DNA from: Candidatus Blackburnbacteria bacterium RIFCSPLOWO2_01_FULL_40_20
Lineage (GTDB): Bacteria; Patescibacteriota; Microgenomatia; UBA8517; UBA10165
Reading direction: 5' to 3'
Assembly: GCA_001816475.1 (NCBI GenBank)
Contig: MHCC01000025.1
Coordinates: 1 to 52,075, forward strand
DNA: 52,075 nt
This document shows, piece after piece, positions 22,234-24,986 of this stretch. The notes under the pieces are model-generated. The model made no database searches. It was not told where the DNA came from and saw only the letters and a list, made by a program, of their open reading frames with translations. Numbering within the stretch: the first letter of the stretch is position 1; each line of letters opens with the position of its first letter. The position numbers and the translations under genes were made by a program.

Positions 22234-22241
22234 GAAATATG
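22234..22241. repeat. 8-bp target-site duplication, left copy
   Basis: GAAATATG, repeated at 24655-24662 on the other side of the IS element. Confidence 0.85.
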
Positions 22242-22296
22242 AGCACCTATCCCTTGACTTCATGTAAGGCTAAAGTAGAACTGGTATAATCTAGGC

Positions 22297-23040
22297 ATGG
22301 GTTTTAAATTTGAGTTTGGTAGACCAAGAATAAAAAATATTTCAGAAGATGAAATACTGGATGAGCTCGAAGAAGTTGCGAAACATTTCAACTATAGCTA
22401 CTTCCGCCGCAGCGACTTTAATAAGATAGCTGAAATCCATTCAGCAACTGTCGAAAGGCATTTCGGTGGGTCTTGGAGTGCCGCCGTACGAGCTCTTAGT
22501 AAAAGACTAAAGCGCAAGAATATTACTCTCTTATTAGGAAGACAAAGGGGGAATTCTGATGAGACGATGTTTAATGAAATGGAAAGGATTTGGAGAAAAC
22601 TGGGACATCGACCTTCTCGGGATGAATGGAGAAAGATGAAACCCATTATTAGTTATGATTCCATATACCGTCGTTTTGGAGGATGGACTAATGCCTGTTT
22701 AAAATTCATTGAATATAAATCTGGGTCATCTGTGGTTTCTAGTCACAAAGTTTTTGGGAAAGTTGACACAAGTAAAACTCGAGCCATTTCACCAAAAGTC
22801 AACGCTACAGAGATAGAGAAAACAAGGTCAATATCGCTAAATATTAGGCTTAAGGTTCTAAATCGAGATAAATTTCGTTGCGTATTCTGTGGTAAGAGCC
22901 CCGCAACAGACATTGGAACGCAACTTCATATTGACCATATAGTTCCTTTCTCCAAGGGAGGAGGAAATAACCTAGAAAATTTACAAACTTTATGTTTTGA
23001 ATGTAACTTAGGGAAAAGTAACCGAGACGTTGCAGAATAA
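22297..23040 (+). CDS. HNH endonuclease with homing-endonuclease-associated repeats (IS passenger)
   Basis: 247 residues. Two repeats of the type found with homing endonucleases (ATVERHFGGSWSAAVRAL; then LGHRPSRDEWRKM...IYRRFGGWTNACLKF) precede a C-terminal HNH domain: CVFCGKSP, HIDHIVPFSKGG, NLENLQTLCFECNLGKSN, with both Cys pairs and the catalytic DH. ATG is six bases after TATAAT. It lies inside the IS1595-type element, 55 bases from the left end. Passenger role is unknown; it could nick DNA, help transposition or act as a selfish nuclease. Confidence 0.9.
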   Translation: MGFKFEFGRPRIKNISEDEILDELEEVAKHFNYSYFRRSDFNKIAEIHSATVERHFGGSWSAAVRALSKRLKRKNITLLLGRQRGNSDETMFNEMERIWRKLGHRPSRDEWRKMKPIISYDSIYRRFGGWTNACLKFIEYKSGSSVVSSHKVFGKVDTSKTRAISPKVNATEIEKTRSISLNIRLKVLNRDKFRCVFCGKSPATDIGTQLHIDHIVPFSKGGGNNLENLQTLCFECNLGKSNRDVAE

Positions 23041-23064
23041 AAATTAGTCTGCTAGAGTGGGCTT

Positions 23065-23232
23065 ATGACAAAACTTCGGAGCTTAACACTTAAAAGACTC
23101 TTAAGAAGACACAAAAAAAATCCTCAAGATGAAGAGCTTCATAGGACTATTGAAGTAAGTTCTATGGGCAAAGGAGAATTTTTAGGGTTCATCACTAAGG
23201 CCAGCATCCCCAAGAAAGGAAAAAATAAATGA
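23065..23232 (+). CDS. small basic protein, 55 aa (IS passenger)
   Basis: Starts 24 bases after the HNH gene and ends in ATGA with the next frame. Basic N-terminus (TLKRLLRRHKKNPQDEELH) and a strand-like C-terminal half (GKGEFLGFITKASIPKK). Not recognised. Supported by the coupling and by its place in a compact passenger operon. Confidence 0.55.
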   Translation: MTKLRSLTLKRLLRRHKKNPQDEELHRTIEVSSMGKGEFLGFITKASIPKKGKNK

Positions 23233-23432
23233 CAATCAGTTTATGGTCGATTGAAAAAACAAAGCTAGGCGAGGTTGTTACGTCAGGCCTTCATAAGGTA
23301 GAATTCGTTGATGAGGAACTATCGGAACAAAATTGGAACAGAAAAATTAAACCAAGTTGGGGCGGCAATAAAGGTGAAAATTTCTTCTCGAGGTCAAAAA
23401 GAACCTTACAAAATCGGCTGGGCCAAAATTGA
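23229..23432 (+). CDS. small ORF, 67 aa, overlapping the retropepsin gene
   Basis: Starts at the ATGA overlap with the 55-aa ORF: MTISLWSIEKTKLGEVVTS... The last 120 bases run out of frame through the start of the retropepsin gene. It may be a genuine small protein, or the true N-terminus of the retropepsin separated by a +1 shift between about 23311 and 23400. I cannot decide from sequence alone. Confidence 0.4.
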   Translation: MTISLWSIEKTKLGEVVTSGLHKVEFVDEELSEQNWNRKIKPSWGGNKGENFFSRSKRTLQNRLGQN

Positions 23433-23736
23433 TACAGGCGGAAGCCATACTCATATTGAGAAAAAACTGATAGAAAGTCTTAAACTAAAACCGTTCGAAA
23501 AGGTTCTACACAGCAATTCTTCAGTAGAAAAAGAACCCACGGACAGATATTTAATCCATATGTATTTTCCAAAACTAGATGTAGAGGGAGATTTCAAGGT
23601 AACTGCTTCTAATATGAAATTTGAAAAGTTTGAAGGAGAGCCTGTTATGGCAATACTTGGACGAGATTTTCTAAGAGAATGTAAATTTATCTACAACGGA
23701 AAGACAGGTGAGTATCAGGTTATTATTGAGACTTAA
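23311..23736 (+). CDS. retropepsin-like aspartyl protease (IS passenger)
   Basis: 141 residues from ATG 23311. AKIDTGGSHTHIEKKLIESL carries the DTG active-site loop, and VMAILGRDFLRECKFIYNG is the ILGxDFL strand of the retropepsin fold, so this is a single-lobe protease that would act as a dimer. The last 14 bases overlap the convergent transposase gene. A passenger in an IS is unusual for this fold. Substrate unknown. Confidence 0.82.
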   Translation: MRNYRNKIGTEKLNQVGAAIKVKISSRGQKEPYKIGWAKIDTGGSHTHIEKKLIESLKLKPFEKVLHSNSSVEKEPTDRYLIHMYFPKLDVEGDFKVTASNMKFEKFEGEPVMAILGRDFLRECKFIYNGKTGEYQVIIET

Positions 23737-24607
23737 TTGTCTTTACTTCTCCAATCTGATTCAGAAGCAATTCAAACATTCCGCTCCCTACTTCTCGATT
23801 GTTATATCTCCACCCATACTCATCTGCATACGTCTGAAGATATTTAGGCGAGATTACTCTATAAACCCCATACACTCCTCTTTTGAAATGTGACCAGAAG
23901 TTTTCGATGTTTTGGGTATGAACCTCGCCTTTTCTAAATTGACCAATACCATGAGCAACAGACTCATGACTATATCCGTGGTATTTTAATTGGGTGTAAC
24001 CTTTATACTCGTCACTATAGACAATTGCTCTTGGGTCTATGTAGTCTTTTATTTGCTTTAGAAGTGTCCATTTTCCAGTGTTGGGAATGTGTTTAAGGTG
24101 AACCTTGCCTTGTCTTTCAACCATTCCCATTAGAACCTCTTTTTGCTTTTCTCCTTGTCGCCAATCCCGTCTATTTCGACCTTTTCCACCTACAAATGTT
24201 TCATCTACCTCAACCACCCCCGTTAGCTGATTTCCTGAAGTGTCAGCCATCAGCATACGGATTTGCTTGAACATTCTCCAAGCTGTTTTGTAGGTTATTC
24301 CTAGCTCTCTTTGTAATTGCTTAGCTGATATTCCTGAACGGGTAACTGACATGAGGAAAATTGCATAAAACCAATACTGGAGAGGAGTTGTGGTTTTCTC
24401 AAAAATGGTTCCAGACAGAGGAGCAACCTGATATCCACACGAGCATTGATAAACCTGTCTGCTCTTGATTTTATAGAAATTTGTGATTTCCTTGCAGTTC
24501 TGGCAGTAAATTCCCTTGGGGTACTTAATACGTCTGACGTACTCCAGACACCTCTCATTAGAGCCAAATTTCTTCAGAAACTCGCCAAGGCTAAATCTTT
24601 CATTCAC
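23723..24607 (-). CDS. IS1595-family (ISXO2-like) transposase
   Basis: 294 residues. N-terminal zinc ribbon (CQNC...CSCG), a HTH region (SAKQLQRELGITYKTAWRMFKQ), then the DDE-type core: VEVDETFVGGK, IVYSDEYKGY, and TQNIENFWSHFKRG with the Asn-Ile-Glu arrangement of IS1595. It appears intact. The right inverted repeat lies 22 bases beyond its start codon. Confidence 0.95.
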   Translation of the reverse strand: MNERFSLGEFLKKFGSNERCLEYVRRIKYPKGIYCQNCKEITNFYKIKSRQVYQCSCGYQVAPLSGTIFEKTTTPLQYWFYAIFLMSVTRSGISAKQLQRELGITYKTAWRMFKQIRMLMADTSGNQLTGVVEVDETFVGGKGRNRRDWRQGEKQKEVLMGMVERQGKVHLKHIPNTGKWTLLKQIKDYIDPRAIVYSDEYKGYTQLKYHGYSHESVAHGIGQFRKGEVHTQNIENFWSHFKRGVYGVYRVISPKYLQTYADEYGWRYNNREVGSGMFELLLNQIGEVKTIKSQ

Positions 24608-24638
24608 AGGCTCATATTAGCAGATTATTTACCTGTTG

Positions 24639-24986
24639 TCAAGGGATAAGTGCCGAAATATGTAAGTGTTCCTCAATTTTCTCGATTCTTTTTCGTAATT
24701 CCAAATACTCCACATCAGAAAAATTAATCACTGTGTTAATATTTTTTCTGATTTTCACAATATCTTTTTTAACTGTTTGTATATCCCTTTTAACTGGCTC
24801 AAGCTCTTCCTTAACAATTTTTCTCGTCTCTTCTTGTACAATCTTTCTTGTTTCAGTCTGAATTATTGCCATTATTTCTTCACGAACAATTTTTCGAGTT
24901 TCTTCCTGTATAACTTTCTTTGTTTCAGATTGGACTTCAGACTTTACAATTTTTTGGATTTGTTGAAGATCGTTCTTTGTTAACAT
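24639..24986 (-). CDS. coiled-coil protein with heptad-like repeats, 3' end altered by IS
   Basis: 115 residues, almost all helix: repeated 11-12-residue units of the ETRKIVQEE / ETRKIVREE type, then KRDIQTVKKDIVKIRKNIN and a C-terminal KRIEKIEEHL. The family is common in CPR genomes, function unknown. The last four codons (ALIP, stop) come from the IS end. Joined to the left flank without the IS, the reading would be HISS and stop, so the loss is trivial and the protein probably still works. Start preceded by TAAATT nine bases upstream. Confidence 0.75.
   Translation of the reverse strand: MLTKNDLQQIQKIVKSEVQSETKKVIQEETRKIVREEIMAIIQTETRKIVQEETRKIVKEELEPVKRDIQTVKKDIVKIRKNINTVINFSDVEYLELRKRIEKIEEHLHISALIP
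24655..24662. repeat. 8-bp target-site duplication, right copy
   Basis: GAAATATG, matching 22234-22241. Confidence 0.85.

Follow-up and report, generated by a model that had tools for sequence, protein, structure and literature searches.

The element and genes at positions 22234-24986

The 52,075-nucleotide contig MHCC01000025.1 of Candidatus Blackburnbacteria bacterium RIFCSPLOWO2_01_FULL_40_20 (hereafter, the window) harbours at positions 22242-24654 a cargo-carrying IS1595-family element of 2413 bp, recognised by its ends, a target-site duplication and a transposase gene, and with dozens of relatives of the same architecture. From the transposase-distal end, the plus strand codes for an HNH nuclease, for a mini-protein of 55 residues which is the main subject of this study, for a small frame of 67 residues and for a retropepsin-like protease. 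Two copies of the 8-bp sequence GAAATATG, identical at 8/8 positions, flank the element at 22234-22241 (left copy) and 24655-24662 (right copy), and the terminal inverted repeats, at 22242-22267 (plus strand, transposase-distal, beginning AGCACCTATCCCTTGAC) and at 24629-24654 (minus strand, transposase-proximal, beginning GGCACTTATCCCTTGAC), agree at 21 of 26 positions; a 17-mer of the proximal end recurs without change at the corresponding end in several of the related loci L027-L044. An initial annotation, made from the sequence alone, had placed an IS1595-type element with 21/26 ends and a perfect 8-bp duplication at 22234-24662, and both features are confirmed at these positions. Its single transposase is likewise borne out: one intact frame of 294 residues (23723-24607, minus strand), convergent with the cargo and overlapping the end of the protease gene by 14 nt, scored above the cut-offs of the curated models for the Pfam DDE domain DDE_Tnp_IS1595 (PF12762; E=3e-38, 131.7 bits, cut-off 27), for an N-terminal zinc ribbon (PF12760; E=1.6e-6, 28.4 bits, cut-off 25.4) and for the NCBIfam IS1595 transposase (NF033547; E=7e-60, 202.5 bits, cut-off 75). 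The segments VDETF, YSDEY and ENFWSHFKRG are legible in its translation, and in a transposase tree the window copy falls among elements of Patescibacteria. By its transposase, zinc ribbon, ends and 8-bp duplication, the element belongs to the IS1595 family. The element and its transposase are present in a single copy in their own genome, with the transposase frame and the ends intact; a search of this 958-kb genome for the end sequence, allowing up to two mismatches, returned two sites, which are the two ends of the element, and a reversed control returned none.

The mini-protein is encoded at 23065-23232 (plus strand), a frame which the initial annotation did not single out, and carries the motif GKGEFLGFITKAS. 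Over its whole length it is 36-50% identical (E down to 4e-10) to proteins of the same type, and it has homologues in eight other loci (L015, L027, L029, L030, L031, L032, L090 and L093). No family for the mini-protein exists in Pfam, and the window copy matched none in NCBIfam or PHROGs, save for one weak, chance-like NCBIfam match (E=0.02). An AlphaFold model (predicted local distance difference test score, pLDDT, of 77) predicts three short helices, with the motif in the last of them. In L090 (4954-7401) the order of genes from the far end resembles that of the window: a small HNH gene, a mini-protein 52% identical to the window's, and then three other genes.

Relatives of the element and conservation of the mini-protein

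Eighty loci with related transposases were retrieved, 70 of which had a recognisable transposase-side end. The concern voiced with the initial annotation, that the ends might not be conserved in other copies, did not materialise, as a matching far end together with an exact 8-bp duplication was found in 54 of these 70 relatives, compared to 0-1 in ten displaced-position nulls. Conservation of the entire 2413-bp unit at the DNA level was found only in part: the transposase segments match those of relatives, but the remainder gave nearly no match. The set used for the analysis of cargo comprised 57 bounded elements, i.e., the window element, 54 of the 80 loci, and L015 and L024, which came from genome searches; the duplications of L015, L024 and L048 contain one mismatch, and the far end of L015 is weak. 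Since the bounded elements mostly measure 1.7-4.2 kb, far more than the transposase of about 0.9 kb, nearly all of them carry cargo. The 102 cargo open reading frames of at least 80 residues (called mechanically, so that spurious frames are to be expected among the smaller ones) formed 83 clusters, only seven of which had more than one member, the largest consisting of 12 trypsin-like proteins from Acidobacteriota. The cargo includes DNA methyltransferases, BglII- and Mrr-type nucleases, PIN and NYN nucleases, phage-type proteins of the P63C and KilA-N kinds, PP2C/FHA proteins, and ClpP-like and CAAX proteases, and closely related transposases in the tree can be accompanied by unlike cargo (L040 and L044; L084 and L085). 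The group spans Patescibacteria, Chloroflexota, Acidobacteriota and Armatimonadota, with the transposase near one end and a variable cargo slot extending to the other end. No relatives were found in phage DNA and viral contigs.

What recurs in the slot is the motif [ST][KR]x[DE]Fxx[LA]L[KR][KR]A[ST], found in a protein of 39-89 residues, or at the C-terminus of a cargo protein, in 49 of the 57 elements and in all four phyla; in each of the 49 accepted elements it lies on the strand opposite to the transposase. The motif seeds were chosen by eye, and the motif was hence tested by training across phyla. A matrix trained on elements from outside the Patescibacteria gave nine of the 20 elements from Patescibacteria higher scores than any of 103 flank controls, and revealed four proteins that had been missed by eye. 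With the matrix trained on Patescibacteria, 18 of the 37 other elements scored above 99% of 155 controls, and 12 above all 155. In an iterated leave-one-out procedure, 49 of the 57 elements, including all 20 from Patescibacteria, exceeded 99% of 238 controls.

A profile of 17 Patescibacteria copies was run through 351 genomes and gave 30 matches in 27 of them, 29 of which adjoin an IS1595 transposase (about half of the 29 are elements used to build the profile, the rest being independent). A cross-phylum profile of 32 sequences was diffuse and the scan with it insensitive; three of its matches, from other classes (L211-L213), adjoin IS1595 transposases, whereas for a fourth (L214) there is no such transposase within 1.5 kb. 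Divergence of the mini-protein follows that of the transposase, both over 45 elements (Mantel r=0.31, 0 of 5000 permutations) and among the 15 from Patescibacteria alone (r=0.47, 3 of 5000). At the level of codons, the conserved Leu of the motif is specified by six codons and the Ala and Thr by four each, and identity is 46, 56 and 31% at the first, second and third codon positions, respectively, a pattern that arises partly by construction, as the motifs were picked at the amino acid level. Because synonymous codons vary and the third positions are the least identical, codon use indicates that selection on the mini-protein acts at the protein level.

In some elements the mini-protein is part of a larger protein. 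In L042 the motif lies past residue 300, where the match to a phage P63C family profile stops (phrog_2384, E=2e-110), and in 12 Acidobacteriota elements it forms the C-terminus of the trypsin-like protein; these fusions identify the mini-protein as a module. The 12 elements (L059, L064, L065, L072, L076-L078, L080-L082, L092 and L097) have exact 8-bp duplications, and in several of them the start codon of the trypsin-like gene lies within the terminal repeat. The mini-protein is conserved, accompanies the transposase whatever the cargo, and in some elements is covalently joined to that cargo.

Elements on alphaproteobacterial plasmids (L176-L178) also have ends, duplications and passengers. 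A small frame extends over the 3′-end of the transposase gene in L176 (4791-4994) and in L177 (4812-5090; 68 residues), with the sequences ...DLDxLxALIKRP and DLDTYNCALEAVVRPP; by eye, these frames possibly represent a distant form of the mini-protein.

A candidate second component of IS1595 elements

On balance, we lean towards the reading that the mini-protein is a second core protein of the cargo-carrying IS1595 group and that it probably acts with, or on, the transposase, a function that we infer from comparison of sequences. The mini-protein would fold as a short helical domain, the last, amphipathic helix of which (DFxxLL followed by RA) would dock on a partner, and this partner would be the same in every element. 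The likely partner is the transposase, since whatever the mini-protein docks on would have to occur in every element, and no protein apart from these two is universal. By binding the transposase, the mini-protein could tune or direct transposition, and cargo that is fused to, or co-translated with, the mini-protein would be tied to the element. The HNH nuclease and the retropepsin of the window would be exchangeable cargo, probably serving the fitness of the host or of the element in conflicts with phages or other elements. A broader proposal, which we regard as possible rather than probable, is that a large group of IS1595 transposons, with members in four phyla or more, serves as a general cargo shuttle, in which a transposase and a near-universal helical mini-protein, either separate or fused to the C-terminus of an exchangeable cargo protein, link nucleases, proteases, methyltransferases and defence candidates to the transposition machinery.

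Several observations weigh against a role of the mini-protein as a core component. The window motif GKGEFLGFITKAS scores 11.4, barely above the 99% level of the controls (11.2) and below their maximum (12.0), and is one of the two weakest that were accepted, although the similarity over the entire protein is unambiguous; moreover, the motif went undetected in eight of the 57 elements, most of them from Dehalococcoidia and Armatimonadota. One of the 30 matches to the Patescibacteria profile (L146) has no transposase nearby, and the co-divergence with the transposase would be expected equally from plain co-inheritance. In L015, L024, L090, L093 and L100 the transposase gene is truncated or broken, with the mini-protein and the cargo remaining open; these are apparently non-autonomous derivatives that keep the mini-protein, which may not require its own transposase.

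The absence of a detectable mini-protein from the Dehalococcoidia elements would also fit ordinary passenger-carrying IS1595 elements, in which the HNH nuclease, the protease and the small frames hitch-hike at random and the 55-residue frame is a small gene that is common but of no use to the element. Such passenger-bearing elements ('tIS') are known (PMC5704250), as the initial annotation had stated, and HNH and retropepsin genes are found outside elements. However, a mini-protein that is present in 49 of 57 otherwise differing elements, always on the same strand relative to the transposase, and that is nearly absent away from it, makes chance association unlikely. Instead, the mini-protein and the cargo could form one system in which the mini-protein has the regulatory part, as an antitoxin-like protein or adaptor that restrains or recruits the cargo enzyme, so that elements are kept by addiction. 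Its fusion to cargo in L042, L100 and the 12 trypsin-like proteins of Acidobacteriota, its overlap with, or close apposition to, the stop codon of the cargo gene in L024 and L160, and the presence of PIN, NYN, nuclease and methyltransferase genes among the cargo are in line with this idea, but a single motif is hardly suited to neutralise proteins as unlike as proteases, FHA phosphatases and methyltransferases, and the sequence of the mini-protein follows the transposase. We consider a regulator of cargo unlikely.

Two further explanations make direct reference to the transposase gene. The mini-protein may copy the C-terminal helix of the transposase (MFxLLLxQ) and keep the copy number low by competing with it or by dominant-negative inhibition. 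The C-terminal window is the most motif-like of 278 transposase windows, the similarity of own pairs exceeds that of permuted pairs (mean of 11.6 vs. 8.8, z=3.9; z=2.6 in Patescibacteria), and there is one copy of the element in the genome. However, equal or larger z values are obtained at other transposase windows, such that shared ancestry and composition could account for the similarity; the signal from outside the Patescibacteria is weak (z=2.0), and F..LL helices are common. We take the likeness to the helix as a lead only, and inhibition by mimicry as quite improbable. Finally, many copies overlap or abut the 3′-end of the transposase gene on the other strand, as would be expected if the conserved stretch were a DNA or antisense-RNA signal that is translatable by chance; yet third codon positions vary freely, and the frame is remote from that end in L029, L031, L093 and the window. 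A nucleic acid signal has very little probability, and codon use led us to reject the mini-protein as a DNA signal.

Compared to the tIS elements, with which it shares the IS1595-type DDE transposase, inverted ends, 8-bp duplication and passenger genes, the group of the window element differs in that its cargo is nearly always different and a mini-protein motif recurs over four phyla. The ISNwi1 subgroup of IS1595 presumably has a matching range of sizes. The family is reportedly treated in a 2009 paper by Siguier, Gagnevin and Chandler, with tIS elements such as tISCpe8 and MTnSag1. The mini-protein was not found described in the literature covered, and its combination with near-universal, ever-changing cargo appears to be undescribed as far as that literature goes; ISfinder and the 2009 paper lie outside this coverage, so that an earlier description is possible.

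Part of the cargo resembles candidates for phage defence listed in PADLOC. PDC-S45 is matched by 12 cargo proteins (the four trypsin-like ones checked singly match), PDC-S42 by the cargo of L033 (E=1e-95) and PDC-M08B, weakly, by the proteases of the window and of L024. The difference is that here these proteins are cargo of IS1595 elements, and a defence label based on genomic neighbourhood could itself stem from the insertion of elements in defence islands; that some listed candidates are transposon cargo means that the inference from their neighbourhood needs checking. Insertion sequences are usually regarded as elements with a single gene, and any passengers as accidental. If the mini-protein is a core component, the IS1595 group would have a dedicated second component that becomes visible only once the cargo is ignored; this would help explain how small transposons, including those of ultra-small bacteria, ship defence-like genes, and such cargo could be located by searching for the mini-protein.

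Cargo genes of the window element and its insertion site

The HNH nuclease (247 residues; 22297-23040, plus strand) has two homing-endonuclease-associated repeats (Pfam HNH_repeat, E=4e-14) followed by a C-terminal HNH domain (E=5e-13), in agreement with the nuclease with homing-type repeats described in the initial annotation. It shares with homing endonucleases the catalytic HNH domain and two repeats of a DNA-binding type; unlike other HNH nucleases with homing-associated repeats, it is carried by an IS1595 element. No homing site, intron or intein was seen at the gene, which lies inside the transposon ends, and homing was rejected as the mechanism of mobility, as the transposase, the ends and the duplication account for the insertion. 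Its closest relatives (L180-L184) are chromosomal, with no IS1595 transposase nearby, the best being L180 (54% identity over the full length).

The protease (142 residues; 23308-23736, plus strand; IDTGG ... ILGRDF) scores 23.5 bits against Pfam Asp_protease_2 (PF13650), below the cut-off of 24.3. Nevertheless, the IDTG and GRD columns are invariant in an alignment with chromosomal relatives, a profile of the protease recovers the protease of human T-cell leukaemia virus type 1 (HTLV-1; E=0.02), and the predicted fold (pLDDT 73) has retropepsins as its best matches in the PDB (Foldseek E of about 1e-4). Because of the shared motifs, the HTLV-1 match and the retropepsin-like predicted fold, identification as a retropepsin-like protease with a single lobe is credible, and the single-lobe aspartyl protease of the initial annotation stands despite the sub-threshold Pfam score. 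The chromosomal retropepsins of Patescibacteria also have the DTG and GRD motifs and a single lobe, and those in L020-L023 have no IS1595 transposase nearby; the window protease differs from them in that it lacks both a partner gene and the insertion of about ten residues that precedes their catalytic strand, and in that it is located inside an IS1595 element. The only other IS1595 element with a retropepsin is L024 (26-29% identity), which has a different partner gene from the window, i.e., one of the chromosomal type, together with a mini-protein. In these Patescibacteria loci (L020-L024 and L164), a conserved gene of 85-108 codons (YKGQFVLIKGxxxxGSFTTxxEAY...FLIKQV) overlaps the start of the protease gene, the two forming an apparent two-gene unit.

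The initial annotation had viewed the HNH nuclease and the protease as a new passenger set. This was not upheld: each family occurs elsewhere without the element, no second locus with both was found in the search of relatives, and a recurring HNH-retropepsin set was rejected on this ground. Because cargo varies among relatives, and because relatives of both proteins lie away from IS1595 transposases, the two are exchangeable cargo genes.

Between the mini-protein and the protease lies the 67-residue frame (23229-23432, plus strand), the start of which overlaps the stop codon of the mini-protein (ATGA) and for which no match was found in the libraries searched. It overlaps the protease frame (23308-23736) by 125 nt in a different reading frame, and a +1 shift, for example at the A-run at 23342-23346, would fuse the two into one longer gene. 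The 67-residue frame could form a gene of its own or, if a frameshift has split the protease gene, encode the N-terminus of the protease, and the overlap could represent a programmed frameshift, an assembly error or two genes. The four plus-strand passenger frames of the initial annotation hold as passengers but not as a count, as three genes are possible given this overlap.

The element is inserted at the end of a host gene for a coiled-coil protein (24639-24986, minus strand), the last codons of which are now supplied by the element: the protein ends in ...EEHLHISALIP with the insertion, whereas the joined flanks restore ...EEHLHISS followed by a stop codon. Relatives of the coiled-coil protein stop six or seven residues past the same EKHL or ETHL. 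Since the end given by the joined flanks is a natural one, close to the short tails of the relatives, the insertion appears to have caused little harm. A clean syntenic empty site was not found in a search made with the flanking coiled-coil protein; in L168 an L33 gene and a coiled-coil gene lie within 1.5 kb of each other, but are arranged differently. The empty state of the site is supported solely by the joined flanks, in which the end of the gene is restored. Elsewhere in the same genome (G000:C15:5371-5718) another coiled-coil protein is encoded, which has ETRKIV repeats and is 44-61% identical to the neighbour of the insertion site.

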